From an uncultured Gemmatimonadota bacterium (GTDB lineage Bacteria > Gemmatimonadota > Gemmatimonadetes > Gemmatimonadales > Gemmatimonadaceae), in NCBI GenBank assembly GCA_902826615.1, contig CADEFN010000002.1:248001-312000 (forward strand): DNA of 64,000 nucleotides, in the 5' to 3' direction. Shown piece by piece: positions 11,040 to 30,053 of this stretch. The position numbers were made by a program, and so were the translations under genes. A model generated the notes under the pieces. The model was not told where the DNA came from. It saw only the letters and a program-made list of their open reading frames with translations, and searched no databases. Numbering within the stretch: the stretch's first letter is position 1; each line of letters starts with the position of its first letter.

Positions 11040-11046
11040 TCATCTC

Positions 11047-12159: not shown

Positions 12160-13283
12160 GGAAGGATAGACCACTGCGGATCGAGATGGTGACGCCCACA
12201 CTCGAGATGGGCGGAATGGAACGCCTGATTGTCTCGATGGCGCAGGCGTATCGGGCCCGTGGCCTCGATGTGCAGGTCACGGCCCTGGAATCTGCTGGCA
12301 CCCTCGGAGATGAAGCCCGCCGGCTTGGCATTCCCGTCACGGTGATCCCCACCCCCGGTCTCAAGACCAATCTCTCGGCGCCAGCACTGGCCGCTCACTT
12401 CAGGCGCCGGCAACTCGACGTGGTGCATGCGCACTCTGGGGTTTGGCTCAAGGCGGCACGGGCCGCGCGCGCGGCGGGTGTGCCGGGGGTGGTGCATACC
12501 TTCCACGGCATTGTGCAGAACGAGCCCTGGTACAACGATGTGTTGCGCCGAGTGGCAGCCTGGTCCACCGATCGTGTGGTGGCGGTGTCGGAGTCGCTGG
12601 CGGAACGGCTCGTACAGCGCTGCGGAATCAGCCGCGCCTGTGTGGAGGTCGTGATCAATGGCGTGGATACGACGCGGTTCAGCCCCGGGGAGCGCGACGC
12701 GGCCAGGGCCTCGTTAGGTGTCGAGGCGGGGGCGTTTGTGGTGGGACATGTCGCCCGCCTCGACCCCATCAAGAATCAGGCGATGTTGCTGCGGGCCTTC
12801 GCCGAATTCCACGCCGGTGCCCCGGAATCGGTGCTGGTGCTGATCGGCAATGGGGTGATGCGTGCCTCACTCGAGGCCCTGGCGGCGCAGCTCAACGTTC
12901 AGCACTCGATCCGATTTGCCGGCGAGGTGACCGACGCTGCCCCGCTCTACCGCGCCTTTGACGTTTTTGCCCTGTCGTCCGTCCTTGAAGGGACGTCCAT
13001 GAGCATCCTGGAAGCGATGGCCACCGGTATTCCGGTCGTCGCGACGGCGGTGGGAGGAACACCAGCCCTCACGCATCAGGGTCAGCTGGCGCGTCTGGTA
13101 CCCCATGACGACGCGCCCGCGATGGCTCGTGCTTTCCGCGAGCTCCGGGACGATGCCACGGGACGGGCCTCCCTCGCGGAGGCCTCACTCGATGTCGTCC
13201 GATCCACGTACTCCGAACAGGCCATGCTCGACCGGTACCTCGAGATCTACGAGGCTGTGTCTCACTCGGGAGCGCCGCGCTGA
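12156..13283 (+). CDS. GT4 family glycosyltransferase
   Basis: 375 residues with a complete GT-B layout. MVTPTLEMGGMERLI is the N-terminal glycine loop, followed by VVHTFHGIV, VARLDPIKNQ and the E-x7-E motif in LEGTSMSILEAMATG. The start overlaps the upstream glycosyltransferase by 4 nt, and the stop shares one base with the ATG of the amidotransferase gene (TGATG). It probably adds one residue of the polysaccharide repeat unit at the cytoplasmic face. Specificity cannot be inferred. Confidence 0.88.
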   Translation: MRKDRPLRIEMVTPTLEMGGMERLIVSMAQAYRARGLDVQVTALESAGTLGDEARRLGIPVTVIPTPGLKTNLSAPALAAHFRRRQLDVVHAHSGVWLKAARAARAAGVPGVVHTFHGIVQNEPWYNDVLRRVAAWSTDRVVAVSESLAERLVQRCGISRACVEVVINGVDTTRFSPGERDAARASLGVEAGAFVVGHVARLDPIKNQAMLLRAFAEFHAGAPESVLVLIGNGVMRASLEALAAQLNVQHSIRFAGEVTDAAPLYRAFDVFALSSVLEGTSMSILEAMATGIPVVATAVGGTPALTHQGQLARLVPHDDAPAMARAFRELRDDATGRASLAEASLDVVRSTYSEQAMLDRYLEIYEAVSHSGAPR

Positions 13284-15157
13284 TGTGCGGCATTTCCGGG
13301 GCGATCAGCCTTGCGTCATCCACCGGTCCATCGGTGGATGCTGTCGCACATCTCACCGATCGGCTCGCGCATCGTGGCCCCGACGGCACCGGCACCTGGC
13401 GCGCTCCCTCGGGGCGCGCGGTGCTTGGCCACCGACGACTCTCGGTGATCGATCTCGCGCTCGGTCAGCAGCCGATGGTCTCGGAGGATGGATCATGCGG
13501 GCTGGTGTTCAATGGCGAGATCTACAACTACCTGGAGCTGCGCAAGGAGCTCGAGGCAGCAGGTGAACGCTTTCGTACGGCGTCGGACACCGAAGTGCTC
13601 CTCCGGCTCCTGCTGCGCGAGGGCGAGGCCTGCCTCGATCGCCTGCTCGGCATGTTCGTCTTCTGCTTCTGGGACGACCGGACGGGACGTGCCCTGCTCG
13701 CGCGCGACCGGATGGGGAAGAAGCCGCTCTTCCATGTGCAGCACGGCGGCATTCTCTGGTTTGCCTCGTCACTCTCCGCGCTGAAGGACTCGGTGCCGGG
13801 AGCGTGGCCGGTGAACCCGCAGGCCGTCGACGACTACCTCACCCTCGGCTACATCCCCGCACCTTCCACGATCTACCAGAGTGCGGGCAAGCTGGAGGCC
13901 GGCACCATCACGACCGTGTCGGGTGGTGCCATGCAGGTGCGCCGTTTCTGGGATCCGCGGCCGGGGCCGATGTTTGGCGGCACGTATGCCGAGGCCTGTG
14001 ATGCACTCGAGGCGCTGGCCAAGGACGCCGTGCGGCTCCGGTTGCGCTCCGACGTGCCGTTAGGCGTCTTTCTCAGTGGTGGCATCGACTCGTCGCTGGT
14101 GACCGCCCTGGCCGCGAAGGAAAGTGCCCAGCCAATTCGCACCTTTTCCATTCAGTTCGATCATGCGGCCTTTGACGAATCGGCCCACGCGGCCGCCGTC
14201 GCGGCGCATACCGGCACGATCCACGAGACGTTCACGGTGCACGCCGAGGTGCTCGAGCTGATTCCTTCGCTGGCGTGGCACTATGGCGAACCCTTTGCGG
14301 ATTCGTCAGCCATTCCCACCTGGATTCTTTCGCAGCACACCCGGCAGCGTGTGACCGTCGCGCTGGGTGGCGATGGGGGCGACGAGGCGTTCCTTGGCTA
14401 CAAGTGGTATGCGACCGCCGCCTCGCTGGAACGTCTGGCGCGCTGGTGTCCGCCGGCTCTGGCGGCCGCGCTGGGTTCGGCGCTGACGCCTGTCGCGGCG
14501 CTGCCGGGTGCCGGACGACTCGCGCGAGCCCTGACCATGCTCGGCACCGCACCGGCCGGCCGGCGTTTTGCGGCCCAACGTTCGTTCATCAACGCCCACG
14601 AATCGCGCACACTGCTCGGACCCGCCCTGCAGCAGGTCCGCCGCAACAGGACGCAGAGCACCGAGGGCATGCTCACCGAACTCTACGAGCATGTGCAGGG
14701 CACTCCTACCCAGCGGATGCGGTATGTCGACTTGCGCACCTACCTGGCCGACTGCCTCCTCCCCAAGGTGGACGTGGCGTCGATGGCGCATGGGCTCGAA
14801 GCCCGGGCACCACTCCTTGATCATCGCGTCGTGAACTTCGGGCTGTCGCTGCCTGACGAGTACCTGGTGGATGCCGGCGGTGGCAAGCGCATTCTGCGTG
14901 ACGTGCTCGCCCGGCATGTGCCCCGCCAGCACTTCGAGCGCCCCAAGCAGGGATTCTCGCTGCCGCTCGCGCCCTGGTTCCGCACCACGTTGCGCCCGCG
15001 GGCGCAGGCCATGCTCGACGACGGCCCGCTGATGGACGGGGGATGGATCAATCCCGCCGGCCTGCGCGCCATCATCGATGAGCACGTGCGCGGCGGGCGA
15101 GACCACAGTCAGCGACTGTACTCACTGCTCATGCTCGACGCCTGGCTGCGCGCATGA
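13283..15157 (+). CDS. asnB: asparagine synthase (glutamine-hydrolysing) family amidotransferase
   Basis: 624 residues. Cys2 of MCGISGA is the class II glutaminase nucleophile. The N-terminal glutamine amidotransferase domain (about 1-190) includes HRGPDGTG and NGEIYNY. The synthetase domain follows, with its ATP-pyrophosphatase loop FLSGGIDSS near residue 265 and GGDGGDEAFLGY near 370. Length and motifs match the AsnB type found in exopolysaccharide clusters. Known: this family makes asparagine, but cluster-borne copies can amidate sugar acids or other carboxylates. Position between two glycosyltransferase genes, with overlaps at both ends, makes polysaccharide amidation plausible (inference). 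Ordinary asparagine synthesis remains possible. Confidence 0.9.
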   Translation: MCGISGAISLASSTGPSVDAVAHLTDRLAHRGPDGTGTWRAPSGRAVLGHRRLSVIDLALGQQPMVSEDGSCGLVFNGEIYNYLELRKELEAAGERFRTASDTEVLLRLLLREGEACLDRLLGMFVFCFWDDRTGRALLARDRMGKKPLFHVQHGGILWFASSLSALKDSVPGAWPVNPQAVDDYLTLGYIPAPSTIYQSAGKLEAGTITTVSGGAMQVRRFWDPRPGPMFGGTYAEACDALEALAKDAVRLRLRSDVPLGVFLSGGIDSSLVTALAAKESAQPIRTFSIQFDHAAFDESAHAAAVAAHTGTIHETFTVHAEVLELIPSLAWHYGEPFADSSAIPTWILSQHTRQRVTVALGGDGGDEAFLGYKWYATAASLERLARWCPPALAAALGSALTPVAALPGAGRLARALTMLGTAPAGRRFAAQRSFINAHESRTLLGPALQQVRRNRTQSTEGMLTELYEHVQGTPTQRMRYVDLRTYLADCLLPKVDVASMAHGLEARAPLLDHRVVNFGLSLPDEYLVDAGGGKRILRDVLARHVPRQHFERPKQGFSLPLAPWFRTTLRPRAQAMLDDGPLMDGGWINPAGLRAIIDEHVRGGRDHSQRLYSLLMLDAWLRA

Positions 15158-16380
15158 AGGTGCTCTGGTTGTCGCACTTCGTTCCGCACCCCCCAACGGG
15201 TCATGGGGCGCTGCAGCGCAGTCACAACCTCCTGGTGGAGGCGTGCCGCACGCACGAGGTACATCTCGTTTCGCTCGAAGCCCCCGGCGCCCATGCCTCC
15301 CGCGAAGCGCTCGAGGAATCCCGCACGATACTGCGTCAGCACGCGGCGTCGGTGAGGACCTTCCCGTTTCCGGCGAGCCGCTGGCGTCGTGGCCTGGCCG
15401 CGGGACTGGGATTCACGATGGCGCCATCGTATTGGGACCGCCTGTTCATGGTACCTGCGATGAGCGAACATGTCGCTGGTCTCGCACGGACAGGCTTTGA
15501 CCTGGTGCACGCCGACGTTGTGTTTCTCACCCACTATCTCGCCGCGCTGCGCGGGGTACCGCTGGCCCTTAATCACCACAACATCGAGAGCGATCTCCTC
15601 CGCCGGCGTGCGGCCGCAGGCAGCGGAGCGGCGCGGCTGTTCTTCACGCGTCAGGCGCGCTGGGTTGAGCAGGCGGAGCGAGCGTGGGCGCCGCGGGCCG
15701 GTGTGAACCTCGTGGTCTCCGATCTCGACGGCGAGCGACTGCAAGCCCTGGCCGGACCGGTACCGGTGGTCACGGTGCCTAACGGGGTGGACCTCGATTT
15801 CTTCGAACCGGCGGCCGGGGTGGCGCCCCAACCACACCACATGGTGTTTGCAGGTGGGATGGACTGGTTCCCGAATCGCGAGGCCATGCGGTATCTCGCC
15901 CGTGAGCTGTGGCCGGCACTCGCAGAGCATGACGGTCGGCGTCGCATGACGGTGGTGGGTCGCCAGCCTCCCGAAGAGCTGGTGCAGGCGGGCTCAGCCG
16001 ATCCACGGCTGCGCGTTACGGGATTCGTGGACGATGTGCGCCCCTACATCACCGAAGCGCCCATCTATCTCTGCCCGATCACCATCGGGGGCGGCACACG
16101 CCTCAAGATTCTCGATGCGCTGTCGATGCAACGGGCGCTGGTGTCCACCGACCTTGGTGTCGAGGGTCTTGGACTCGAGGATGGCGTGCACTATCTCCGC
16201 GCCAACACGACTGCGGAGTTCCTCGCGCAGGTCACCCGTCTGGAAGGGGACGCGTCACTCGTGGCGCGGCTTGGCGCGGCGGGGCGGGCCTTCGTCGAAG
16301 CGCGATATTCGTGGCGCGGCATCGGCCAGTCGCTGAGCGCAGGATGGCGCGCCGCCACCGCGCACCGCGTCACGACGTGA
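15154..16380 (+). CDS. GT4 family glycosyltransferase (similar to PEP-CTERM/EpsH-locus sugar transferases)
   Basis: 408 residues. The N-terminal SHFVPHPPTGHGALQRSHNL loop and the C-terminal LCPITIGGGTRLKILDALS segment, in place of a canonical E-x7-E motif, resemble the sugar-transferase subfamily common in exopolysaccharide/exosortase loci. No exosortase is in this window. The ATG overlaps the amidotransferase stop by 4 nt. The gene closes the overlapping plus-strand run begun at 11047, and 140 nt of non-coding DNA follow. Substrate unknown. Confidence 0.85.
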   Translation: MKVLWLSHFVPHPPTGHGALQRSHNLLVEACRTHEVHLVSLEAPGAHASREALEESRTILRQHAASVRTFPFPASRWRRGLAAGLGFTMAPSYWDRLFMVPAMSEHVAGLARTGFDLVHADVVFLTHYLAALRGVPLALNHHNIESDLLRRRAAAGSGAARLFFTRQARWVEQAERAWAPRAGVNLVVSDLDGERLQALAGPVPVVTVPNGVDLDFFEPAAGVAPQPHHMVFAGGMDWFPNREAMRYLARELWPALAEHDGRRRMTVVGRQPPEELVQAGSADPRLRVTGFVDDVRPYITEAPIYLCPITIGGGTRLKILDALSMQRALVSTDLGVEGLGLEDGVHYLRANTTAEFLAQVTRLEGDASLVARLGAAGRAFVEARYSWRGIGQSLSAGWRAATAHRVTT

Positions 16381-16519: not shown

Positions 16520-18190
16520 GTGCCGTCCAACACCGTCTCACCGCGTGGTGCTCTGCCGGCTTTCCCGCCGCACGCACGCACACGTGAGGAAACCGAGACG
16601 CTCCCCGGCGTGGGGGTAGCGGCGATTTCCGGCGCGGTGCTGCTGGTGCTCGTCGCCGGGATCATGCTCATCGGACCGTATCCGCTCACCAACGATGGCG
16701 GATCGCATGTCTACAACGCGATCGTCGCGCGCGATCTGCTGCAGCACCCTGCCGGCATCTTTTCCGGATTCGCCGAGCTTCGTCCGCTCACAGTACCAAA
16801 CTGGGGTGTACCTGTCCTGTTGTGGCCGCTGCTCGCCTTCGGGGCTGGCGCTGCCGCCAAGAGCATGGTCGTTCTCTCCCTGGTCCTCGGCGTGGCGTCT
16901 GTCGCCTGGTTCGCGAGGAGTGCAGGAGTAGACCGCGAGACCAGTGTCGCCCTCGGCCTCGTGCTTGGCAACACCTGGTTCCTCTGGGCCGGCTTCTGGG
17001 GGTTTTCGCTGTCCACCGCCCTCGCGTTCTTCTGCATCGGGTGGATCCTGCGTCATCGGCACAATCCCCGGCCGCGTGACGCTATGCTGGTGGCGCTGCT
17101 GCAAATCGCTGGTGTCGTACTTCATCCCGTCCCTTCCCTGTTTGTTGGTTTGACCTTCTGCGCCCTGTTTCTGGCCTCGCGGCGTGCGGGGGCGGCGCTT
17201 GAGAAGCCCCCGATCACCCTGAGCGGTGCGGCGGCTAGCGGCCCCATGCTGGTGGCTGCCTTTGCCGCTTCGCGCGTGACCGAGACGGGTGAGGCACCCG
17301 GTTTCTTGACGAGCGGGAAGGAGCTGCTGGAGAGTGTGGTCACCTTTCCCATGGACGCCTTCGAGACATTCCATTGGCCGCACGCCGACGGCAGGTTCGT
17401 GGCGGGAATCGGGGCGCTCGTCCTGGCGGTCGCCATGCACCGCCGCTGGCGACAGCGTTCCTGGGCCCTTGTACGCGAACCGCTCCTGGCGACGGCGGGT
17501 GTGCTACTGCTGGTGCGATTTCTGGCGGCTGATGCCCAACTGCGCGGTGCTTTCATCGATGCCAGGCTCGGCTACTTCGCCTGGGTCCTTCTCATGGTGT
17601 GGGCATTCATCGAAGCGCCGGCGCGTGTGTCGCGTACTGCCATCCTGCTCATGGTGGTGTCCAGCGGCCTCGGTGTTGCCATGCACCTTCGCGGAAGCGC
17701 CGCGATTGTGCCGCTGGTCTCCGACGTGGTGCGCGCAGCGCGCGACGCAGGGCTGGGTGAGGGCACGACGCTGGTACGGGTCCGCTTCGAACCAGGAACG
17801 AGCGAACGAGAATCCGCCGTGACGCGAGTACGTCTGCCGTATCTCCTGACGCATGCGGTGGACTGGGCGGCAGCAGAAACCAGGGCGCGGCATCTTACAA
17901 ACTACGAACTGCTGGGCACCAGCTTCGCCGTGCGCGCATCGGGTCTGCTCGACACCACGCGGGTGCTGCTCCGCTCTCTCGAAGAACCCGACTCGAGTGG
18001 TCACGCCGAGGTGTTGCCGGTGGTCATGCGAGAGCTCAGCCCCGAGGTGCTCGCGTTTGTTGGCACGCCGCCAGACGCGATCGTGGTAATGGTCGAGAAC
18101 GCCGGATACGAACGACAGGGACCGGTCGGGCCATTGCCTCCAGTGTCGTACTACCGGCGCCGCCCGATGACGGCAAGCCTCACCCCTTAG
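16520..18190 (+). CDS. large polytopic membrane protein of unknown function
   Basis: 556 residues with about ten predicted membrane segments. A hydrophilic N-terminal stretch of some 30 residues precedes the first segment, and a soluble C-terminal domain of about 140 residues follows the last. After the first membrane segment, GPYPLTNDGGSHVYNA places an Asp in the first extracytoplasmic loop, as in GT-C glycosyltransferases, but the similarity is too slight for a firm call. The GTG at 16520 is the farthest upstream start; no strong ribosome-binding site decides it. It ends in a 3 nt overlap with the convergent glycosyltransferase gene. Context suggests polysaccharide or lipid-linked sugar handling. 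Confidence 0.65.
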   Translation: MPSNTVSPRGALPAFPPHARTREETETLPGVGVAAISGAVLLVLVAGIMLIGPYPLTNDGGSHVYNAIVARDLLQHPAGIFSGFAELRPLTVPNWGVPVLLWPLLAFGAGAAAKSMVVLSLVLGVASVAWFARSAGVDRETSVALGLVLGNTWFLWAGFWGFSLSTALAFFCIGWILRHRHNPRPRDAMLVALLQIAGVVLHPVPSLFVGLTFCALFLASRRAGAALEKPPITLSGAAASGPMLVAAFAASRVTETGEAPGFLTSGKELLESVVTFPMDAFETFHWPHADGRFVAGIGALVLAVAMHRRWRQRSWALVREPLLATAGVLLLVRFLAADAQLRGAFIDARLGYFAWVLLMVWAFIEAPARVSRTAILLMVVSSGLGVAMHLRGSAAIVPLVSDVVRAARDAGLGEGTTLVRVRFEPGTSERESAVTRVRLPYLLTHAVDWAAAETRARHLTNYELLGTSFAVRASGLLDTTRVLLRSLEEPDSSGHAEVLPVVMRELSPEVLAFVGTPPDAIVVMVENAGYERQGPVGPLPPVSYYRRRPMTASLTP

Positions 18191-19203
18191 CCGGCGCGGC
18201 GCACTTCGTCGACGACGATGCGCGCGAGGTCTCCGAGCAGCCGTTCGGCGCCACCCAGCGATGCCGCAAACGCTTTGCCCTGCTCGGCCACACGCTCGCG
18301 CAGTCCCGCATCGCCCCAGGCGCGATCAATCGCCTGCCCCAGGGCCTCCGGATCACCGGGTGCGACGACGATCGCCTGCTCCGTCACCACATCGCGTGTG
18401 GCCGGGCCATCACTGATCACCAGGCACTTGCCTAACGCCATGAGCGAGAGCAGCGTACTCACGCCCGACGGATTGATGGCGGTCGTCGTGACCGGCAGCA
18501 CAATCAGACGCGCCCCCGCAGCGAGGCGCAGCCACTCTTCCGGATCAGCACCGTTGACGACGAAGCGGGCCGCCTCCGAAAAATCGCTGCGCCGGGGCGC
18601 AATCGCGATGGCTCCCATGCGCCGCAGCTGCTCGTCGTCGGGCATGGAGACAACCACCGGATAGGGGCGGTTCCGCGTCGCGGCACCAAGCGTTGGCCAG
18701 TCCCGATTGGTAATGCCACAGGCAAAGATGTAGTCGCCGTCGGTGACTTCGAGCCGCTCCACTACCTCACGCAGGTTCACCTTGAATGGTACGAACGTGC
18801 TGCGCGACGGCCCGATGCCGTACCAACGATCGTAGGCCGACAGGTCGCGCTGATGCGTCACAAAACGATCGACGCGTCGCAGCAGCCACTTCTTGAGAGC
18901 TGCCCGCTGGACTCCAAACGGCCCAACCGGTGGATTCATTACCGGGTCTGACACCACGAGTCGCGTGCGGACCCACGGCATCAGACGCAGCAGCACACAG
19001 AGCGCCAGCGTGTCGGCGACCGCGCAGTTGAGCAGCACCGCATCGGCAGTGGTGGCCATGCGTGCCAGGCGCCAGGCCGACGTCCAGCGTCCAGCCCCGC
19101 TCGCGCCGGTCTCCACTACGACGGTCTCGCAATCGGGATGGTTGAACGCGCGCAGATTGGTGATAACGCGCCAGCGGCGGAGCGTGGTGCTTGATGGGCT
19201 CAC
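18187..19203 (-). CDS. glycosyltransferase, GT-B fold
   Basis: 338 residues from a GTG at 19203. That start makes a GTGA overlap with the stop of the upstream gene, so the much longer in-frame extension, which lies opposite that gene's coding sequence, is rejected. The C-terminal half shows SGVSTLLSLMALGKCLVISDG and VAPGDPEALGQAIDRAW, a GT-B donor-domain pattern. The N-terminal half is an acceptor-type Rossmann domain with an NCAVADTLALCVLLR helix. It is translationally coupled to the secreted helical-domain protein upstream, an unusual pairing that links that protein to glycan metabolism. Specificity unknown. Confidence 0.75.
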   Translation of the reverse strand: MSPSSTTLRRWRVITNLRAFNHPDCETVVVETGASGAGRWTSAWRLARMATTADAVLLNCAVADTLALCVLLRLMPWVRTRLVVSDPVMNPPVGPFGVQRAALKKWLLRRVDRFVTHQRDLSAYDRWYGIGPSRSTFVPFKVNLREVVERLEVTDGDYIFACGITNRDWPTLGAATRNRPYPVVVSMPDDEQLRRMGAIAIAPRRSDFSEAARFVVNGADPEEWLRLAAGARLIVLPVTTTAINPSGVSTLLSLMALGKCLVISDGPATRDVVTEQAIVVAPGDPEALGQAIDRAWGDAGLRERVAEQGKAFAASLGGAERLLGDLARIVVDEVRRAG

Positions 19204-20639
19204 GTCGGCGGTCGGCGGAGCGCGAGGTACCGATAGGAGCTGGTGTAGCTCTCGTTGAACTGCTTGCTGCCCTGCAGGTAGGCGCCCTTCACACCACCCG
19301 CGAAAACCCGGTCGCCCCATTGCCGGTACTTCACGTCGCCGGTCTGCTGGTACAGCCATCCGAACGAGGTGACGAACAGAAGGTTGAGGTCCGGCGACGG
19401 GACTGCCCCACCTACATCCTCCCCCTGCGCGTTCTTCGCGCAGCGGCCCGACAGATACTTGAAGGATTGCTGCGCGTCGACCCACTGTGTCGACCAGAGA
19501 TAGTCCGTGCTTCGTTTGACAAAACGAAGAATGGCTGTGTCGGGCTTGAAGTGCGTGTGGACGCTGATCAGCTGATCGTTGAGGAGCCCAAGCATGAAAT
19601 TGAGGCTCTGGCCGCAGGTAGCGGGCCACCCCATGCTGCCGTCGGGCCGCTGAACCGACATGCTCCGTTCCACCACACGCGTGAGACGCTGATCGAGCTT
19701 GATCGCCTTGGGGCCAACGGCATTCAGACGCCAGGCGGTCAGCAGGGCTTGAATGGCCCTGGCCTGGATGCGGCTTTCCATCCATGGCGTGTTGAGCGTG
19801 TCGGCAAAGGGATATCCTCCCTGGAGCTGCTCGGCGATCCGCGCGACCGCAAACCGCGACGCCTCATCACCGGTGAGCAGATAGTGCTGCGCCACACCCT
19901 CAGGCTGGGACCAGTGCGGACTGGTGCCGTACTGGTTGGCCTCCAGGTAATTGCGGCGGTAGTTCCGAGCGATCTGTGTGGCACGCCGGAAGTAGACCGG
20001 GTTGGCCGAGCGAACCCAGAATGCGTAGTAGATGAGAGCGCGGTCATAGTAGTTCGCCCCGCTCCAATTCTCGCCATCGAGCTTCCAGTGGAAGTCCGAC
20101 CACTTCGAGAAGTTTGCCTCGTAGGCGGCAAAGGCGGGGCCCTCGGCGCGGGAATCGCTGACAGAGACCGTCGTCCCATTGATACCGGTGCCAACGAGAT
20201 AGGCCACATCGGTGGGAAGCGCCACGGCATCTGCCACGCCACGGTCGAAGCCTTCGGGCTCCCGAAATCCGGTGGTGGTGACGGGCGAGCCTAACGAAAT
20301 TGTCCCGCTTTTCCACCCGCTGGGCGGTACATCGAACATGAACTGGAGCAGTACCGACCGGAGGGTCCCATCACGGTGCAGTCCCGCGAGTGCCTGCGTG
20401 TTGCGCTGGACTTCAGCGCCCTCGACCGTCAGCCGCAGCCGATTGACCTGATCGGGCCGGACGGCTCCTGGCGGTAGCGGGATGGCGTTCGACACCACCA
20501 CGGGCCCCGACCGGCCATCGAAGCGCTGAATCCGCAGGTCGATGGGCGCGAGGGACGGTCCCTGTGCAGGGAGCCCGCGACCGAACGCTGCCAGAGCGAT
20601 GGTCGCGACCAGCCATGGAATGGAAGGCGAGCGTTTCAC
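19200..20639 (-). CDS. secreted protein, single copy of a paralogous helical domain; putative polysaccharide-active enzyme
   Basis: 479 residues starting at a GTG that gives MKRSPSIPWLVATIALAAFG, a good signal peptide with cleavage near GLPAQG. An in-frame GTG 30 nt upstream is less likely because it would fall inside a perfect hairpin. After the signal comes a beta-rich part (about 30-180) with GLHRDGTLRSVLLQF. A long helical region follows, with WSGANYYDRALIYY, EANQYGTSPHWSQ, RIQARAIQALLTAWR and NESYTSSYRYLALR. The whole mature protein aligns by eye with the C-terminal domain of the next gene upstream. Regularly spaced Trp/Tyr-rich helices resemble (alpha/alpha)n-barrel lyases and hydrolases, but I know no named family. 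Coupling to a glycosyltransferase gene supports action on a polysaccharide. Confidence 0.7.
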   Translation of the reverse strand: MKRSPSIPWLVATIALAAFGRGLPAQGPSLAPIDLRIQRFDGRSGPVVVSNAIPLPPGAVRPDQVNRLRLTVEGAEVQRNTQALAGLHRDGTLRSVLLQFMFDVPPSGWKSGTISLGSPVTTTGFREPEGFDRGVADAVALPTDVAYLVGTGINGTTVSVSDSRAEGPAFAAYEANFSKWSDFHWKLDGENWSGANYYDRALIYYAFWVRSANPVYFRRATQIARNYRRNYLEANQYGTSPHWSQPEGVAQHYLLTGDEASRFAVARIAEQLQGGYPFADTLNTPWMESRIQARAIQALLTAWRLNAVGPKAIKLDQRLTRVVERSMSVQRPDGSMGWPATCGQSLNFMLGLLNDQLISVHTHFKPDTAILRFVKRSTDYLWSTQWVDAQQSFKYLSGRCAKNAQGEDVGGAVPSPDLNLLFVTSFGWLYQQTGDVKYRQWGDRVFAGGVKGAYLQGSKQFNESYTSSYRYLALRRPPT

Positions 20640-20663
20640 GAAATGGGAATGTACCAACGCACA

Positions 20664-20693
20664 CGCCACGCCGGGAGCGTTCCCGGCGTGGCG
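20664..20693 (-). terminator. perfect hairpin after the Ig-repeat lipoprotein gene
   Basis: A 13 bp perfect inverted repeat with a 4 nt loop (GCGT): arms GCCACGCCGGGA and TCCCGGCGTGGC plus one outer C-G pair. It lies 22 nt past the stop of the minus-strand gene ending at 20715. No U-tract follows on either strand, so it may be a weak terminator, a processing site or a polarity element separating the two paralogous genes. Confidence 0.6.
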
Positions 20694-20714
20694 CGCGAGC
20701 TTTCTGTCAAGCGA

Positions 20715-23700
20715 CTACTGACGGTACGCGAGATACCGGAAGGACGACGTGTACTGCTGATTGAACTGTTTCGAGCCATTGATGAATGACCCGTTGACCG
20801 CGCCGGCAAAGATCTGGTCGGCTCGGGTTTTGTACGTGGCGTTGCCCGTACGATTGTACAGCCAGGAGTACGAGGTCACGAACAGGTTGTTCAAGTCGAC
20901 CGCGGGCACCGGGCCTCCCACGTAACCCGAGGCCTGCGAGGTACAGTTCTGCGTGATGTACTTGAAGGCGTTGCTGGCCGACAGCCACTCGGCATTCCAG
21001 AGGTAGTCGGCATTCTTCTGTACCATCGAGAGCATCCGTGGATCAGCCCGGTAGTACGTGTGCACCTTGATGAAGACATCGTTGAGCAGCCCGTTCATGT
21101 AGCTGAGGCTGTAGTCGCAGGTGTTGGGCCAGCCAAAGCTTCCATTGGAGCGCTGCGTCTTGAGGATGTCGTCGATGGCCTTGTCGATCAATGCCGGGAG
21201 GTTGAGGTTGGCCGGGCCAACCGCACCGATCCGCCATGCCGTGTACAGCGCCTGGAGCGAGCGGGCCTGAATCCGGCTCTCCATCCAGAGTGTGAACGTC
21301 GTGTCGGCGAGTGGGTACCCCCGCATTTGTTCGGCAACGCGAGCCACGGCAAACTTTGTCTTGCTGTCGCCCGACAGCAGGTAGTGCTGCTCGAGCCCTT
21401 CCACCTGCGACCAGTGTGGGGAGGTCGCGTAGGCATTTGCCTCGAGGTAATTCACCCGATAGTCCACCGCGATCGCGGTACCGCGATAGAAGTAGTCCGG
21501 GTTACCCGTGCGAACCCACATGGCATAGTAGATGAGCGCGCGATCGTAATAGTTGGCCCCACTCCAGCTGGCGCCGTCCTGATTCCAGTGCACGTTCGCG
21601 AAGTAGGCGAAATCACCTTCGTACTTGTTGAACACGCCACCCAGTGCGCGTGCGGCCGCCGACGTGATCGTCGGACCATTCAGATCGGTCTGCACCAGGT
21701 AGTTGGGGTCACTCGGCAACGCAAAGGCCGTGATGGTGGTGCGGTTGGCCGTCGGGGCCGGAATGTCGGTGGTGGTTCGTGCCTGCCCGATGACCAGGGC
21801 GCCCGTCGCCTGACCGGTGACCGGCACGTTGTTGTAGAACTGGACGAAAATCGTGCGCAACGAGCCATCTCGATGCAACCCGGTCAGCGCCTCGGCATAG
21901 ATGGACTGCTCCACCCCGTTCACGAGGACACGGAAGTTGCGCAGCTGATTGGGGAAGAGTGCGCCCTGCGCCAGCGGAATACCGTTGGAGACCAGCACCG
22001 TGCCGCTGCCGTTGTCGTAGCGCTTGATGAGCAGTGCGATGGAACCTGCCGGTGGTGGCGGCGGTGCCGGCGGCTGGGTGACGCTCACCGACGCGGACCC
22101 GCTCACACCACCAATGATGGCGGTAATCGTCGCCGAGCCCGGCGTCACGCCGGTCACCAAACCATTGGTTGCCACCGTGGCCACACCGGTGTTTGACGAC
22201 GACCAGGCCACCGTGCGGGTGAGCACGTTTCCAGCTGCATCCTTGGCCACCGCGGTACCCTGGGTGCCCTGACCCGCCTGAATGCTCGACGCGGCGAGCG
22301 AAACCGTGACGGTCGCCACCGGCGCCGGGGCCTGCGCCGTGACCGTAATCGATGCCGACGCGGTGAGGCCGGTGGAAGTGGACGCCACAATGCTCGTGGT
22401 ACCCGCCGCGACCGCAGTCACCAGACCGTTGGCGGACACCGTGGCGATAGAACTGTTCTGGGAAGACCATGTCACGGTCGCGGAAACCGGTGCGCCGCCA
22501 GCGTCCCGTACATCATCAGAGAGCTGCAGCGTTGTGCCTTGATCGAGCGTGGCCGTACTCGGAGTGACGGCGATAGTGGCCGGGGGGTTGGTGCTCCCGA
22601 TCTTTACAGTCACAGAGATCGGCGCTGCACCGCTGACCGTTCCGGACTGCGCGCGAATGTTGGCGGTGCCTGCACCGATCCCGCTCACTGTACCGTTCGA
22701 CGACACGGTGGCTACCGTCGGCGCGGAGCTGCTCCAGGATACGACTCCGGAAACAACGGTGCCGTTGGCATCCTTGAGTGTCGAGGTCGCCAGCGCGGAC
22801 CCGCCAGCGACGAGTCCCGGCTTGGAGAGCGCCACCGTTACGGAAGCGACAGCGCCCGTCGGGGCTGGTGTGGCCGAAAGGAGAGCTGCCCCAGAGACGC
22901 CGCCAGCGGTTGCCGTGATCGTGGTGGAGCCCGCGGCGAGCGCAGTGATCTGACCGGTGGCCGAGACGCTTGCGACCGTCGGCGCCGATGACGCGTAGGT
23001 GATCGTCTGCCCCGTCATCGGGGCGCCGCCCTGATCGAAGACCGAGGCCGTTGCCTGCGTCTTCTGACCGACTGTGATGCTCGCCGCATTCAGTGTAACG
23101 GTCACCGAGCCAACAATCGGCTGCGGGGCCGCGGTCACCGTCACGGACACGGTGGCTGTCTGCCCTTCGGAGAGAGCGGTGATCACCGCGGAACCCGCAG
23201 CCACACCTGTGACCTGTCCCACGCTGTTGACTGTCGCCACGGTGGGCGCGGACGAAGACCAGTCGACTACGCGGTTCTGCAGCACGTTGCCGGCCGCATC
23301 ACGCAGGACGACGGCCAAGGTCTGTGTCTGGGCCGGGTCCAGCGTTACTGACGAGGGCGAAACCGACACCGTGGCCACCGGAACAGGAGTGACCGTTGCG
23401 GTCGCACTCTTCGACAAACCAGCCGCACTTGCTGTAATGGAAGTAGTACCGGCGCTCACACCTGTCATCAGGCCGCTGTTGCTCACAGTGGCGACGCCCG
23501 GCGTCGAGGAGCTCCAGTTCACGGTAATGCCGGTCATTTGTCGACCGGTCTGGTCGCGAATGTCGGCGCTGAGCTGAGCGGTTTTGCCCTGGGCTACGCC
23601 AGGCGCGGCCGGCACGATGCTGAGCGTGGTGGGAACGGGCCGAATGACCGTCAGCGTCTGCGACGCCGTCTTTCCGCCCGAGATGGCGTTGATGGTCGTT

Positions 23701-24755
23701 GTGCCTTCGGCCATTGCCGTGACGACACCACTGGCGTTGACGGTCGCAACGGAGGGCTGTGAACTGTTGTAGGCAATCAGAGCGCCGGGGATGACTGCCC
23801 CGCTCGCGTCCAGCGCCTGCCCCGTCGCCGTAGTCGTCGCGCCGAGGGCAATCTGCGACGCCTGGAGCGTCAGGCGCACCGATGCCGTCGCCGGAGGACC
23901 CACGTTGACGAGGGCGGAACCCGTGATGCCTTCGGCTCTGGCGGAGATGGTCGCGAAGCCCTTGGTCAAACCAGTGACACGGCCAGCGCCCGACACCGTC
24001 GCGATGGCCGGAGCGCTCGTGGACCAGGTGATTTTGCGGGTCAGTACGCGTCCGGCGTTGTCGTATACCACGGCGGTGAGGGTGACTGCCCCTCCCGTCG
24101 CGATCGTCGTGGTTGTTGGAGTGACGACGATGCGGCTCGCGGCACCCTTGATGACGGACACCTGGGCCGTCGCCGATGCCGATGCGGTTGCGACACTGAT
24201 CGTGACGTCACCCGAATCACGGGCAACGAGGAGTCCGTCGCCGTCGATCATCGCCACGAGCGTGTCGCTCGTGCTCCAGGTTTGAGCCTGCGACACGATG
24301 CGAGCGCCAGCGGCGTCGCTCGAGCCAAAGAGGGCGGCAAAGCGCAGCGTGTCGCCTTCGGGGACGGCGACGATTTCCGGCTCAACCTTGAGGTTCGCGC
24401 CCGGGACGACCACGACGTTAGTGGTGTCCGCGTGACCGGCGATGGCGGCGATCACCTGGGTTCGTCCGACGGCAAACGCAGTGAATGCACCGGCGCCGGT
24501 GATGGTGCCGATCGCTTCGTCCCGCACTTTCCACGACACGGCCACGTCGCGGGTCTGGCCGAACTGGTTGGTGACCACTGCGGCGAAGGGTTTGGAGTCG
24601 CCGATCAGGATCGAGTCGTGCTGCGTTGTGACCTGGACGCGCAGGAGGTCTGCGGGTGTGGGGTCGGCCGGCGCCGTGTCGATCGCGGCCTCGGTACCGC
24701 AGGCGCCGGCGATCAGCGTGGTGAGTACCAGCCGTGCATAACGTGTGAAGCGCAT
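20715..24755 (-). CDS. secreted multi-Ig-like (Big_2) lipoprotein with C-terminal helical domain
   Basis: 1346 residues from the ATG at 24755, preceded by GGAGGA; a 69-codon upstream extension lacks such support. The N terminus (MRFTRYARLVLTTLIAGACG) is a lipoprotein-type signal. Ten consecutive modules of about 82 residues (roughly 35-870) each end in the bacterial Ig-like pattern: WSSS, then VATVS-x-G-x-VTGVAAGT, then I-x-A. A Pro-rich hinge (QPPAPPPPPAGS) leads to a domain of about 470 residues homologous to the whole mature protein of the neighbouring gene. It includes GLHRDGSLRTIFVQF, WSGANYYDRALIYY, EANAYATSPHWSQ and NQQYTSSFRYLAYR. Inferred: a surface stalk displaying a polysaccharide-binding or polysaccharide-cleaving head. 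The catalytic nature of the head is unproven. Confidence 0.8.
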   Translation of the reverse strand: MRFTRYARLVLTTLIAGACGTEAAIDTAPADPTPADLLRVQVTTQHDSILIGDSKPFAAVVTNQFGQTRDVAVSWKVRDEAIGTITGAGAFTAFAVGRTQVIAAIAGHADTTNVVVVPGANLKVEPEIVAVPEGDTLRFAALFGSSDAAGARIVSQAQTWSTSDTLVAMIDGDGLLVARDSGDVTISVATASASATAQVSVIKGAASRIVVTPTTTTIATGGAVTLTAVVYDNAGRVLTRKITWSTSAPAIATVSGAGRVTGLTKGFATISARAEGITGSALVNVGPPATASVRLTLQASQIALGATTTATGQALDASGAVIPGALIAYNSSQPSVATVNASGVVTAMAEGTTTINAISGGKTASQTLTVIRPVPTTLSIVPAAPGVAQGKTAQLSADIRDQTGRQMTGITVNWSSSTPGVATVSNSGLMTGVSAGTTSITASAAGLSKSATATVTPVPVATVSVSPSSVTLDPAQTQTLAVVLRDAAGNVLQNRVVDWSSSAPTVATVNSVGQVTGVAAGSAVITALSEGQTATVSVTVTAAPQPIVGSVTVTLNAASITVGQKTQATASVFDQGGAPMTGQTITYASSAPTVASVSATGQITALAAGSTTITATAGGVSGAALLSATPAPTGAVASVTVALSKPGLVAGGSALATSTLKDANGTVVSGVVSWSSSAPTVATVSSNGTVSGIGAGTANIRAQSGTVSGAAPISVTVKIGSTNPPATIAVTPSTATLDQGTTLQLSDDVRDAGGAPVSATVTWSSQNSSIATVSANGLVTAVAAGTTSIVASTSTGLTASASITVTAQAPAPVATVTVSLAASSIQAGQGTQGTAVAKDAAGNVLTRTVAWSSSNTGVATVATNGLVTGVTPGSATITAIIGGVSGSASVSVTQPPAPPPPPAGSIALLIKRYDNGSGTVLVSNGIPLAQGALFPNQLRNFRVLVNGVEQSIYAEALTGLHRDGSLRTIFVQFYNNVPVTGQATGALVIGQARTTTDIPAPTANRTTITAFALPSDPNYLVQTDLNGPTITSAAARALGGVFNKYEGDFAYFANVHWNQDGASWSGANYYDRALIYYAMWVRTGNPDYFYRGTAIAVDYRVNYLEANAYATSPHWSQVEGLEQHYLLSGDSKTKFAVARVAEQMRGYPLADTTFTLWMESRIQARSLQALYTAWRIGAVGPANLNLPALIDKAIDDILKTQRSNGSFGWPNTCDYSLSYMNGLLNDVFIKVHTYYRADPRMLSMVQKNADYLWNAEWLSASNAFKYITQNCTSQASGYVGGPVPAVDLNNLFVTSYSWLYNRTGNATYKTRADQIFAGAVNGSFINGSKQFNQQYTSSFRYLAYRQ

Positions 24756-25079: not shown

Positions 25080-26189
25080 CTACCACACCTCCCACTGCCC
25101 ACGCGCCGCTCGCCACAGGGCTCGGACCACCGCCACCTGAATCGCGACGAACTCGTGCAAGAGGGCTCGTAAGCGGGGCAGCGCCAGCACCACCACTGTC
25201 GCCACACCAGCCGCGCCGCCCGCAATGCGCTGCATCGCGGGCGGCCACCCCTGCGCGAGCCGCCACGTCTCAACGAGGCTGCCTGCAGCGAGCGCGAGAA
25301 TAAGCGGAGGCGTGCCCAGCCGCAGTAACTTGTGGCACACAAACTGTGTGAAGATTGCGTTCTTCCACGGGCGAAGCACCTCAGGCATGAGCGCTACCAG
25401 CTGCAGAACCCCCGTCAGCGTGCGTTCTTTGCGTCTTCCTTCCTGTGCGACGTCGGGCGTACGCGTTTCTCGTGCCACCGCCGAAGCGGCAAATCCTACC
25501 CGGTAGCCGCGCAGCACCAGATCCATCGGTGTGAAGACATCGTCGAGGATCACGCCCGCGGGCAACGGACGGAACGCGGTGCGCCGCAACGCGTACACCG
25601 CGCCGGTCACACCAACCGCCGAATGCACCCGTGCCTCGTCCTCCCGAAGACGGCGCTCCATCCGCCAATACTGCCCGACGAGTGTCTTCGTCGAGCCGGC
25701 GGCCAGTTCGAGCCGCCCCGACACCGCTCCGAACGCGGGGTTGCTCATGGCGCGTGCAAGAACCATCAGCGTGTCTCGCTCAAAGCGCTGGGCTGTGTCG
25801 CACATCACAACCACGTCACAAGTGGACTGCGCCACGCCCACGTTCACCGCCCCCGGCTTGCCTGCCGGACCCTCGGCGCGGACGACGCGCGCCTGGGGAC
25901 ACAACACACGCGTCTCGCGTTCCACCTCGGCAGGGGTCGACGCGTCGAGCGCCACCACCACGTCGGGACGTCCCTCCGGCCACTCGCACGCGAGCAGGTT
26001 CTCGACTCGATCCCGCACGAGGTCGGCGGGCCCACGGGTGCACACCACGGCCGTGACTGGCCCGGGCCTCTGCTCGGCAGGCTCCACTTCGCGACCCTTC
26101 AGTCGCGAAAGGAGCGCCATCGTCAGGGGATAGCCGACCCAAGTCACAAGCAGCAGTACCGTCGAACCCAGCACCAGCAGGGTGGCCAT
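25080..26189 (-). CDS. GT2 family membrane-associated glycosyltransferase
   Basis: 369 residues from the ATG at 26189, preceded by AGGGACGA; an upstream in-frame start 60 nt earlier is less likely. An N-terminal membrane helix (MATLLVLGSTVLLLVTW) precedes a GT-A domain. The domain shows TAVVCTRGPADLV, a PAGKPGAVNVG segment, MCDTAQ in the position of the DxD motif (D-T-A here), GAVSGRLEL, and a late DDVFTPMDLVLRGY acidic motif. Two or three C-terminal membrane segments follow. This is the architecture of processive or lipid-linked-sugar GT2 enzymes. It is divergent from the epimerase gene, with 119 nt between them. Confidence 0.82.
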   Translation of the reverse strand: MATLLVLGSTVLLLVTWVGYPLTMALLSRLKGREVEPAEQRPGPVTAVVCTRGPADLVRDRVENLLACEWPEGRPDVVVALDASTPAEVERETRVLCPQARVVRAEGPAGKPGAVNVGVAQSTCDVVVMCDTAQRFERDTLMVLARAMSNPAFGAVSGRLELAAGSTKTLVGQYWRMERRLREDEARVHSAVGVTGAVYALRRTAFRPLPAGVILDDVFTPMDLVLRGYRVGFAASAVARETRTPDVAQEGRRKERTLTGVLQLVALMPEVLRPWKNAIFTQFVCHKLLRLGTPPLILALAAGSLVETWRLAQGWPPAMQRIAGGAAGVATVVVLALPRLRALLHEFVAIQVAVVRALWRAARGQWEVW

Positions 26190-26308: not shown

Positions 26309-27277
26309 ATGGCGTCAACAGTCCTCGTTACCGGTGGTGCAGGTTTTATCGGCTCTCACCTTGTACGCGCACTCCTCGCGCGCGGTCACACCGTGCGCGT
26401 GCTCGACAACTTGAGCACGGGATTCCGCGAGAACCTGGCCGCGGTCGAATCCGGCATCGAGTTCCTTCACGAAGACATCCGTGACGTGGACGCCTGCGAC
26501 CGGGCCATGAAAGGCGTCGACACCCTGTTCCACCTCGCCGCGCTGGCCAGCGTTTCGCGCTCCATGCGCGACCCGATCGCCACACACGAGGTCAATGTGA
26601 ATGGCACGGTTCGTCTGCTCGAGGCCGCGCGCAAACACGGGGTCCGACGGTGTGTCTTCTCCAGCTCCAGCTCCGTCTACGGTGAGACCCCTGCCCTCCC
26701 CAAGGCCGAAGACGCCGAGCCGCTGCCCAAATCGCCGTATGCAGCTTCCAAGCTCTCAGCGGAGCAGTACACGCTGGCCTACGCACGAGCGGGGCTCGTC
26801 GAGGGTGTGGCGCTACGGTACTTCAACGTGTTCGGACCGCGACAGGATGCCAACGGTCCCTACGCCGCCGTGATTCCCCTCGTGATGCGTGCCGCACTGA
26901 CACGTGGGCGCATGACGGTGTTTGGCGATGGCCTGCAGACACGCGACTTCACGTATGTCGACAACGTCGTACACGCCAACCTTCTCGCCGCCTCGGCCCC
27001 TGCCGAGCAGGCCAGTGGGCAAGTCACCAATGTGGGTGGCGGACGCCGCATCAGTCTGATGGACCTCATCAACGAGGTCGGCCGACTCTCTGGTCATCCT
27101 ATCGACATCGACTACCAGCCTCCTCGACCGGGGGATATCAAGCATTCCCTCGCCTCACTCGATCGCGCTCGTCAGGCAACCGGGTATGAGCCTCTGGTGA
27201 GCATGCAGGAGGGATTGTCGAAGACGTGGGAGTGGGCGTCGGCACAGGCTGCGGATCCCGTGGGTCATCCGGCGTGA
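26309..27277 (+). CDS. NAD-dependent nucleotide-sugar epimerase/dehydratase (extended SDR)
   Basis: 322 residues from the ATG at 26309; the 37 in-frame codons upstream do not resemble the family. Rossmann motif TGGAGFIGSH is at residues 8-17, with catalytic YAASK preceded by SSSSSVYGE, then RYFNVFGPRQ and the FGDGLQTRDFTYVDN substrate loop. The pattern is closest to UDP-glucose/UDP-GlcNAc 4-epimerases of the WbpP/GalE type. It provides an epimerised UDP-sugar for the polysaccharide. Exact substrate not determined. Confidence 0.9.
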   Translation: MASTVLVTGGAGFIGSHLVRALLARGHTVRVLDNLSTGFRENLAAVESGIEFLHEDIRDVDACDRAMKGVDTLFHLAALASVSRSMRDPIATHEVNVNGTVRLLEAARKHGVRRCVFSSSSSVYGETPALPKAEDAEPLPKSPYAASKLSAEQYTLAYARAGLVEGVALRYFNVFGPRQDANGPYAAVIPLVMRAALTRGRMTVFGDGLQTRDFTYVDNVVHANLLAASAPAEQASGQVTNVGGGRRISLMDLINEVGRLSGHPIDIDYQPPRPGDIKHSLASLDRARQATGYEPLVSMQEGLSKTWEWASAQAADPVGHPA

Positions 27278-27299
27278 CGCGCTTGGCGTTGCGCGATTC

Positions 27300-28826
27300 G
27301 TGACGGTTCCTCCTGATCCGGCTTTCGACGTCCGCCGAATAACCCCGGCCAGTCAGCGGCGCCTCGACGGCAAGCTGATTCGCGGCGTGAAGTGGTTCGG
27401 CGCCTCTCGACTTGCCGCCCAGGTCATCACCTGGGTGGTGTCCATGGCGGTCGCGCGGTTGCTGACGCCGTCGGACTACGGCCTGATCGGCATGGCCTCA
27501 GTTTTCCTCGGTGCACTCGCCATCGTTGGGGAGTTCGGGATTGGAAGCGCGGTCATGGCGCATCCCGAGTTTGACCGGAAGGACCTGGCAAGCCTGCACA
27601 GTTTGGCGTGTCTGACCGGTCTTGGCGTCGCCATCCTCGGCGCCGTCGTTGCCGTCCCGGTGGCCCGCGTCTTTGACGAACCGGCGCTCACCTGGGTCGT
27701 CATCGTGCTGGCGCTCAATCTTTTTCTTGTGGCACTGCGCACGGTTCCGCAGGCCTACATGCAACGCGAGCTGCGCTTTCGCGCTGTCGCGACGGTGGAC
27801 CTGGTGCAGTCCGTGCTGCAGGCGGCCGCCACCCTGGCGCTCGCCTACTGGGGTTTCCGGTACTGGTCTCTCCTCCTCGGTACGCTGGCGGCGAGTGCGA
27901 CCTACACGGGACTGCTGTGGATTTTTTCAGGCATCGGCTTCGGCGATCCGCGACGAGAGAGTGTCCGCTCCGCGTTTGTGGTCATTCGCAACGTGCTCGG
28001 GGCTCGTCTGGCCTGGTACGGCTTCCAGAATGCCGACTTCTTTGTCGTCGGGCGCTGGCTGGGCCGGCATGCGTTAGGCGTGTACACCATTGCCTGGAAC
28101 CTCGGGCTGTTGCCGCTGGAAAAGCTCTCCGCACTCACGTCGAATCTTGCCCCCGCCATCTTCTCGGCCGCGCGCAATGATGCCGACCTGACACGCCGGT
28201 ACCTCCTGGGCATGTCCGCCGCGTTGCTGCTGGTGACCTTGCCACCCACTGTCGGAATCGCGCTCGTCGCGCCGGACCTCATCCAGGTTGCCCTGGGACC
28301 GAAGTACCTGGAGTCGATCGTGCCACTGCGCCTGCTGTCGATCTACTGTGCCGTCCGGTGCCTCGATCCTCTCTGGTCGCAGCTGCTGGTGATCGGTGGT
28401 GAGTCGCGCCTGGTGCTACGCCTGAACCTGGTGGGGCTCCTGGTGTTGCCGCTGGCCTTTGTTTTCGCCAGCCGCTGGGGCACCACGGGAGTCGCTGCCG
28501 CGTGGATCGTGGCACATCCGCTGATTATCGTGCTCCCAATGCTGCTGCGCGTCTCGAGCCGGTATGGTGTCACACTTCGGGCCCAGCTCACCAATGCCGC
28601 ACCGGGCCTCATTGCGTGTGCCGCCATGGTGGGGACGGTGCTGACATGTCAGCAGCTGCTGCCCGCCGACGCGTCGCCACTCGTCAGGCTGCTCGCGGCA
28701 TCGGGCGTCGGGGCGCTGACGGTGGCGTCGGTACTCTGGTTCGGCTTCCGGGAGCGTACCATGACCCTCGTCAGGCTGCTGCGTCAGCGCGAGCTCGCGC
28801 CCACCGCCGACACACGTTCTGCATAG
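27300..28826 (+). CDS. Wzx-type polysaccharide flippase (WzxC/MOP superfamily)
   Basis: 508 residues with about 12-14 membrane segments. The amphipathic start, LIRGVKWFGASRLAAQVITW, then AVARLLTPSDYGLIGMASVF, is diagnostic for the WzxC/TuaB branch of polysaccharide exporters. The GTG start lies 22 nt after the epimerase stop. Known: it flips undecaprenyl-diphosphate-linked repeat units to the periplasm. Together with the Wzy-like protein at 9.6 kb it implies a Wzx/Wzy-type pathway. The chain-length and outer-membrane export components are not in this window. Confidence 0.88.
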   Translation: MTVPPDPAFDVRRITPASQRRLDGKLIRGVKWFGASRLAAQVITWVVSMAVARLLTPSDYGLIGMASVFLGALAIVGEFGIGSAVMAHPEFDRKDLASLHSLACLTGLGVAILGAVVAVPVARVFDEPALTWVVIVLALNLFLVALRTVPQAYMQRELRFRAVATVDLVQSVLQAAATLALAYWGFRYWSLLLGTLAASATYTGLLWIFSGIGFGDPRRESVRSAFVVIRNVLGARLAWYGFQNADFFVVGRWLGRHALGVYTIAWNLGLLPLEKLSALTSNLAPAIFSAARNDADLTRRYLLGMSAALLLVTLPPTVGIALVAPDLIQVALGPKYLESIVPLRLLSIYCAVRCLDPLWSQLLVIGGESRLVLRLNLVGLLVLPLAFVFASRWGTTGVAAAWIVAHPLIIVLPMLLRVSSRYGVTLRAQLTNAAPGLIACAAMVGTVLTCQQLLPADASPLVRLLAASGVGALTVASVLWFGFRERTMTLVRLLRQRELAPTADTRSA

Positions 28827-28835
28827 CCACGCGGT

Positions 28836-30053
28836 GTGACACGGCCCCGAGCGCCTCACGCGATCCCGCTCATCGCCGTCTCTGCGATCGCGATCGCCTT
28901 CGCCACGTTGTGGCCAATGCCGGGGAGCCCGGCGACCACTCAGCGCTGGTGCCTGCTCTGCGGCGACCTGGGCGGCGTCGATTTCATCAACAACGTTGCG
29001 CTCTTTCTCCCGCTGGGGCTCGCGCTCAGGCGACGGTACGCGCTGCCCACGAGCCTCCTGGCGGGCGTGGCGCTGTCACTCGCGGTCGAGGTCCTGCAAT
29101 GGCGCGTGGTGCCGGGGCGCGACGCCTCGCTCGGCGACCTTACGGCCAACACGGTCGGCACCTGGCTTGGCTCCCTTGTGTGGAGCGTGTGGCCGCTGGT
29201 CCGGCGGCCATCCCATCGCGCCGCGTGGACCGGGCTCCTGTTCTCCCTCGCGCTGTTTACGGGAGTTTGGGCCGGATCTTCATGGGCCATGCGTCCGGCG
29301 CCCATCCGGTGGAATCACTATCTCGCCTTCAATTCGCGGAGTGCCGACGTGCCCCGGTTCGAGGGGAGCGTGGAGCGTGTCCGCCTCTTTGACGTGCCGG
29401 TGTCTGAATACGATGTGATCAATGCCATCCGGTTTGGGGCAGCCTACGGACTCGGCCAGATCGACCTGCGTGCCCGGATAGGGGGGCATGCTCCCGAAGG
29501 TGGCGCCGTCGTGCTGCGTATCGCCAGCCACACCTTTGTACCAGCAGAAGTGACCGCCAGAGGAACCGACCTCGTCTTCCGGGCACGACGGAACGCGGCA
29601 ATACTCAAACTCCGTTCGCCCGTGGTGACATTCCGGCGAGCGCTCTCCGATTCTGCCAGCGAGTTCCGTTTTCAGGCGCGGGAAGGCGACATCGGCATCA
29701 CCCGAGCCGGGTCGGCCGATTCATCGGTGGTAGTGCAAGCACTCACTCCCGCTCGCTCGTGGGCGTTGTTCGGGCCCATCGAGGTACGCGACGCCACCCT
29801 CGGGCGCATTCTCGACTTTGTCTGGCCCGCGCTCCTGCTCGTCGCGGTGATGTACTTCGCCGCCCACCTGGGAAGGCCAATCGTTGCCGCTGCCGCGGTG
29901 TGGACCCTGGGTGTCGTCTCGATGGTGATGGGGTTCGGGCCGCCGTTGCCGCTGCAGGGGCTCGCCGGGCTCCTGGTCGGGGCGTGGGCCGGCGTCAGGC
30001 TGGCCGCAGGGCGCCCAGTGTCAAACGATCTCGAAGCGAGTCGAACGGGCTGA
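28836..30053 (+). CDS. VanZ-like membrane protein with inserted extracytoplasmic beta domain
   Basis: 405 residues. The N-terminal VanZ-like part (about 1-125) has DFINNVALFLPLG and EVLQWRVVPGRDASLGDLTANTVG, the usual conserved core. After a membrane helix near 140 comes a soluble, beta-rich domain (about 160-300). It resembles LamG/concanavalin-type sugar-binding folds in pattern (FEGSVERVRLFDVPVS). Three more membrane helices end the protein. VanZ-like genes with such domains occur in exopolysaccharide loci; their role is not known. It lies 9 nt after the flippase gene, and its last 33 nt overlap the convergent GNAT gene. Confidence 0.75.
   Translation: MTRPRAPHAIPLIAVSAIAIAFATLWPMPGSPATTQRWCLLCGDLGGVDFINNVALFLPLGLALRRRYALPTSLLAGVALSLAVEVLQWRVVPGRDASLGDLTANTVGTWLGSLVWSVWPLVRRPSHRAAWTGLLFSLALFTGVWAGSSWAMRPAPIRWNHYLAFNSRSADVPRFEGSVERVRLFDVPVSEYDVINAIRFGAAYGLGQIDLRARIGGHAPEGGAVVLRIASHTFVPAEVTARGTDLVFRARRNAAILKLRSPVVTFRRALSDSASEFRFQAREGDIGITRAGSADSSVVVQALTPARSWALFGPIEVRDATLGRILDFVWPALLLVAVMYFAAHLGRPIVAAAAVWTLGVVSMVMGFGPPLPLQGLAGLLVGAWAGVRLAAGRPVSNDLEASRTG

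Follow-up and report, generated by a model that had tools for sequence, protein, structure and literature searches.

Two genes of a Gemmatimonadota bacterium encode secreted proteins that share a domain of no named family, one free and the other carried on a lipoprotein stalk, amid genes for exopolysaccharide synthesis. What does this domain do, and what governs its tethered form? Gemmatimonadota are abundant in soil, and their matrix biology has been little studied. We analysed a 64,000-nt stretch from an uncultured member of the Gemmatimonadaceae (contig CADEFN010000002.1, positions 248,001 to 312,000), hereafter the window.

A shared domain in free and stalked forms

On the minus strand, a c-di-GMP-I riboswitch is followed by the gene for a 1346-residue lipoprotein (20715–24755), the gene for a free secreted protein (19200–20639) and a gene for a GT4-type glycosyltransferase (18187–19203; Pfam Glyco_trans_1_4, 2.5e-6). 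The lipoprotein begins with MRFTRYARLVLTTLIAGAC, in which we assigned the lipobox LIAGAC by eye rather than with a predictor, continues into a stalk of ten Big_2 stretches (E 2.6e-79), matching the ten-module Ig-like stalk of a first-pass annotation, and ends with the family domain (20718–22058, minus strand). The free protein has a GTG start, 479 residues and a signal peptide ahead of its domain (19203–20561); an alternative upstream GTG at 20669 would make it 489 residues long. Residues are numbered here along the domain, which comprises free-protein residues 37–489, so that adding 36 gives free-protein numbers.

The two copies are about 51.4–52% identical from end to end over 449 columns with 3 gaps. 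BLASTP scored the pair at 479 bits and the best of 1000 shuffles at 28.9 bits, bearing out the earlier claim that the free protein and the lipoprotein C-terminus are paralogous throughout. Only these two places in the 5.9 Mb source genome match the family domain. Searches of Pfam, NCBIfam, PHROGs and PDB sequence, whether run with one protein at a time or with a profile of the family, matched no family; one hit to SIP (PF04954) at E 0.16 was dismissed as chance.

The stop codon of the free gene (TGA, 19202–19200) overlaps the glycosyltransferase start (GTG, 19203–19201) in a GTGA sequence, making the translational coupling that the first-pass annotation read here plausible. A G+C-rich inverted repeat sits between the stalked and free genes and lacks a T-run, so lipoprotein, free copy and glycosyltransferase may be read from a single transcript. 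Upstream of the stalked gene lies a GT2-type glycosyltransferase (25080–26189, minus strand) with homologs near relatives elsewhere. Exopolysaccharide genes lie on the plus strand to either side: a Wzy_C ligase/polymerase, GT4s and an asparagine synthase-like gene (9642–16380), a set that recurs beside relatives, and an NAD epimerase, a Wzx flippase and a VanZ-like gene (26309–30053).

A predicted toroid linked to PL26

To place the domain structurally, we modelled it with AlphaFold2 from an alignment of ten sequences (pLDDT 86.6, pTM 0.90). The model comprises a beta domain (about residues 1–116) and twelve main helices arranged as a complete (alpha/alpha)6 toroid (134–448). On the minus strand of the free gene, these parts correspond to 20226–20561 (domain residues 1–112) and 19215–20162 (134–449). 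The unit had been described as helical; it is not only helical, because the beta domain of ~115 residues stands at its start.

The solved structures that resemble the toroid are mostly sugar enzymes, with sugar-active (alpha/alpha)6 enzymes as the top matches at Z 20–24 (Foldseek, VIA). Cellobiose/AGE epimerases lead (Z 23.9 over 301 residues), ahead of GH105 (23.1) and GH88 (22.7), and GH76 structures are among the best Foldseek matches. The 2-epimerases share the toroid at 7–14% identity, whereas our family is secreted, carries an extra N-terminal domain and has no universally conserved His pair. Since epimerases, hydrolases and terpene cyclases are all found on the toroid fold, the fold alone leaves the reaction unfixed. 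A viral structure library returned a single match below 1e-3; it was to an unnamed protein from a phage, and its rmsd was poor.

The architecture as a whole points to polysaccharide lyase family 26. In the exo-rhamnogalacturonan lyase PcRGLX (PDB 5xqg/5xq3; YetA-like, PF19501), as in our model, an N-terminal beta domain precedes an (alpha/alpha) toroid, and among the matches listed PcRGLX (5xqg) was the sole one to span model residues 1–452 (Z 19.8, 400 residues, 14% identity). When the N-terminal domain was folded alone (pLDDT 80), its three best structural matches were all PcRGLX, at Z 7.0–7.4, a middling value by itself.

Sequence profiles point the same way, by an indirect route. Neither protein, nor anything else in the source genome, matches PF19501 (PcRGLX_1st) above its curated cut-off, and this Pfam family is absent from the sampled members of the same bacterial family and order and present in other Gemmatimonadota. 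Against seven PL26-like proteins from those other Gemmatimonadota, the family profile aligns over 226 toroid columns (hhalign probability 97.3%, E 2.2e-11); these proteins in turn match PcRGLX at E 6e-10 and thereby form the bridge between the two. The YYD motif (171–173), R264 and KxF (433, 435) align with their conserved residues. Weak family-profile matches in a scan of the phylum (G207:C99, G202:C92, G203:C24 and G207:C314) fall in some of the genomes or contigs that bear PL26-like proteins.

The likeness has clear limits. About 20–60 residues separate the N-terminal domain from the YYD helix in the family, as against ~370 in the PL26-like protein A7; the central beta domain of PL26 (roughly 300 residues) is not present between N-terminal domain and toroid; and we saw no YYD in the part of PcRGLX that aligns to the PL26-like proteins. 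Because of the missing central domain and the unseen YYD, profile and sequence comparison place the family in the PL26 (PcRGLX/YetA-like) superfamily as a distant branch and not as a PL26 member. The first-pass annotation could not assign the domain to a named family, nor could the databases searched, but the domain is no orphan.

Conserved residues and candidate chemistry

We counted conservation over 28 members from Gemmatimonadota, Alphaproteobacteria and one viral contig. Y172, R264 and Y369 are kept in all 28, D173 and N393 in 27 of 28, and K433 and F435 in each of the 27 members where they are present. The putative pocket residues are common to the free and stalked copies. Counted on the secondary structure of the model, D173, R264, N393 and K433 stand at the starts of inner helices 2, 6, 10 and 12; the conserved polar residues lie at inner-helix N-termini or just before them, and mean conservation is higher at inner than at outer helix starts. 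Going by the known layout of such toroids, these residues would cluster in one pocket. A near-invariant polar set at the position where toroid enzymes have their active sites argues for catalysis.

Which chemistry such a pocket would perform is the harder question. A hydrolase in place of a lyase is a less likely reading: a glycoside hydrolase of a new (alpha/alpha)6 type, or a GH88/GH105-like unsaturated-uronyl hydrolase that uses Asp173, would then act on the exopolysaccharide. GH105, GH88 and GH76 are among the closest folds; the GH88/GH105 enzymes (Z 21–23) and GH76 mannanases have in common with the family both the toroid and a single conserved Asp where an inner helix starts, a place that D173 fills in 27 of 28 members. 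The family has no sequence match to these enzymes, however, and no universal second carboxylate, the candidate D391 being kept in 23 of 28, and it is the PL26-like proteins that come nearest by sequence profile. As for the two conserved catalytic His of the AGE epimerase superfamily, H226 is kept in 24 of 28 members and H216 in 12 of 28, with no universal pair within the toroid. We favour lyase-type cleavage, with the proviso that PL26 chemistry is not to be assumed, since D173 is the sole near-invariant carboxylate and YYD is unseen in the aligned part of PcRGLX.

Relatives and their genomic neighbourhoods

Relatives in Gemmatimonadota and Microvirga mostly sit in exopolysaccharide loci. Among about 19 non-phage loci, ~12 lie among exopolysaccharide genes, with Wzy_C, Wzx, GT2, GT4, AsnB, exosortase EpsH with DUF3485, and Poly_export (polysaccharide export) as neighbours, and an ABC exporter in one Microvirga genome; L072, L075 and L080 have no obvious exopolysaccharide locus. 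The source window holds much of this neighbour set. Some relatives carry ricin-type lectin repeats, and one (L061) ends in a Gly/Asp-rich repeat tail that looks RTX-like.

Exopolysaccharide clusters frequently code for an enzyme that cuts the polymer (PMC9075953). AlgL, PslG, the PelA hydrolase domain and BcsZ are likewise polymer-cutting enzymes encoded within synthesis loci (PMC8829089, PMC9075953), but they belong to other families and are not known in an Ig-stalked lipoprotein form.

Phage-type relatives stand beside terminase or portal genes in three places: L064 (Aminobacter), L065 (a viral contig) and L084 (a weak match). The 49.8 kb IMG/VR contig of L065 carries two tandem, strongly diverged copies (3744–6769) upstream of its terminase and portal genes. 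GenBank phage records held no match to the family. Phage-borne copies in such positions would be expected of an enzyme that cuts exopolysaccharide.

These surroundings bear on whether the target is made by the cell or by others. It strikes us as very improbable that the proteins scavenge polysaccharide of foreign origin, from plants or algae (rhamnogalacturonan, for example, or a sulfated glycan), and sit in this locus by chance. Rhamnogalacturonan is the PL26 substrate, and sulfatase and sulfate-activation genes do lie inside the window. Yet relatives in two phyla are surrounded by the exopolysaccharide gene set of the window, we recognised no genes for uptake or sugar catabolism next to them, and the phage-borne copies fit a polymer of the host.

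The first-pass annotation had interpreted the domain as a new family of polysaccharide enzymes or glycan-binding proteins acting on the product of this locus. Its observations are confirmed, and this interpretation is partly supported: by an unnamed family, a fold of carbohydrate enzymes, putative pocket residues kept in both copies, soluble and surface-bound forms, and relatives that recur in exopolysaccharide loci. To this our analysis adds the tie to PL26, the set of conserved residues, relatives borne by phages and, most of all, the riboswitch for c-di-GMP.

A c-di-GMP-I riboswitch before the stalked gene

The aptamer (RF01051; 24868–24778, minus strand; Infernal 62.9 bits, gathering 35, E 6.2e-10) is the nearest element to the stalked gene, with 22 nt from aptamer to ATG. 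As read from the sequence, the intervening short expression platform (24777–24753, to the end of the start codon) holds a GGAGG ribosome-binding site (24771–24767) and the ATG (24755–24753). It is the one c-di-GMP-I riboswitch found in the 5.9 Mb genome, where 150 of 316 first-look candidates were scored.

The arrangement recurs directly upstream of seven relatives: L066 (at 19044), L067, L070, L071 (at 10238), L074 (at 7258), L077 and L079. Together with the source locus this makes eight places in which the riboswitch stands 20–30 nt 5' of the family gene; for L070 the distance is to a short Big_2 lipoprotein ORF that precedes the family gene, possibly through a frameshift, and for L066 the N-terminal domain alone is present on the contig. 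A probable ninth case is L092, whose lipoprotein gene, lectin-repeat-like, is cut off by the end of its contig. A GGC segment is present in each of the nine aligned aptamers; its mapping to Vc2 position 20 (G for c-di-GMP, not cGAMP) is our own assignment. A gap of 20–30 nt offers room for a ribosome-binding site and is too short for a terminator, from which we infer that the riboswitch controls translation of the stalked gene. The Vc2 switch acts by translational control (PMC9262584).

The riboswitch is not exclusive to this protein family. In 14 family-bearing genomes we found 17 riboswitches, 8 of which precede family genes, and Rfam searched at relaxed settings, with the regions that precede twelve other relatives and the free copy itself, yielded no real riboswitch. 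Across the same bacterial family, 123 of 179 genomes carry c-di-GMP-I riboswitches, up to 8 per genome, and the others that we inspected precede different, mostly lipoprotein-like genes. Judged by this distribution, the riboswitch-preceded family genes form part of a broader regulon of surface proteins under c-di-GMP.

Such a regulon invites a reading without enzymology, in which a catalytically dead toroid holds the exopolysaccharide, the stalk presents it, and the whole serves as a glycan-binding or polymer-anchoring adhesin under c-di-GMP control. The Ig-like stalk and lipid anchor would suit this role, as would the diverse lipoproteins behind other riboswitches of the same genomes and the Cap adhesin of Bacillus thuringiensis, a surface protein whose gene directly follows a c-di-GMP riboswitch that controls it (PMC4933901). 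Cap is a Firmicute adhesin, whereas the Gemmatimonadota protein bears an enzyme-like domain on its Ig stalk. The near-invariance of polar residues across 28 members, at the position of a toroid active site, speaks against a binding-only protein, and we regard one as improbable.

A model for matrix cutting under c-di-GMP

We give about an even chance to the following overall reading: the two proteins are PL26-like extracellular enzymes that cut the exopolysaccharide of their own locus, probably as lyases, with translation of the stalked form set by c-di-GMP. They would represent a compact branch of the PL26 superfamily in which a PL26-type N-terminal beta domain is joined straight to the toroid. 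Catalysis, lyase chemistry and substrate are our readings of these data. Cleavage, most likely of the polymer made by the surrounding genes, would probably proceed by beta-elimination, with Y172, D173, R264, Y369, N393 and K433 lining the pocket. In the matrix, the free form would do the cutting; the stalked lipoprotein would work at the cell surface, where it could trim, release or remodel polymer as this leaves the cell. Through the riboswitch, c-di-GMP would control translation of the stalked gene and possibly that of the downstream free copy and glycosyltransferase, so that matrix building and matrix cutting would be tied to one signal. AlgL, PslG, the PelA hydrolase domain and BcsZ are not known to be under riboswitch control.

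A broader generalization falls somewhat short of even: that these are members of a new lyase family, related to PL26 but distinct, whose members in Gemmatimonadota cut exopolysaccharide while tethered to the surface and gated by c-di-GMP riboswitches, and whose phage members serve as depolymerases of the same kind of polymer. If true, this would add a new carbohydrate-active family, extend c-di-GMP riboswitch action to matrix remodelling, beyond adhesion or motility only, and supply depolymerases for otherwise uncharacterised soil exopolysaccharides. The locus offers a testable unit of a defined RNA switch, a surface enzyme and an adjoining polymer locus.

Further features of the window and of a related genome

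Genome G064 carries two tandem family genes (L074, 7258–12058), the first of which follows its c-di-GMP riboswitch; more copies occur in other places, among them two on the 1.1 Mb replicon that score identically.

In the source window, positions 1–9544 adjoin the exopolysaccharide genes and encode a sulfatase, a bifunctional ATP sulfurylase/APS kinase, a sodium:sulfate symporter and a second APS kinase. This suggests a sulfated polymer, though no sulfotransferase was identified. On the minus strand at 30021–33142, genes for a GNAT protein, a stand-alone class II aminoacyl-tRNA-synthetase-like protein, a carrier-protein-like ORF (32131–32367) and a hexapeptide acyltransferase are consecutive, a row that may load an amino acid onto a carrier for decoration of the polymer.

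A second riboswitch in the window is of a class named after the alpha-proteobacteria. This SAM_alpha element (RF00521; 34299–34373, plus strand; 39.8 bits, cut-off 36) lies directly 5' of the gene at 34400 (1202 aa); we take the proteins encoded at 34400–38008 and 38015–39859 to be parts of methionine synthase.
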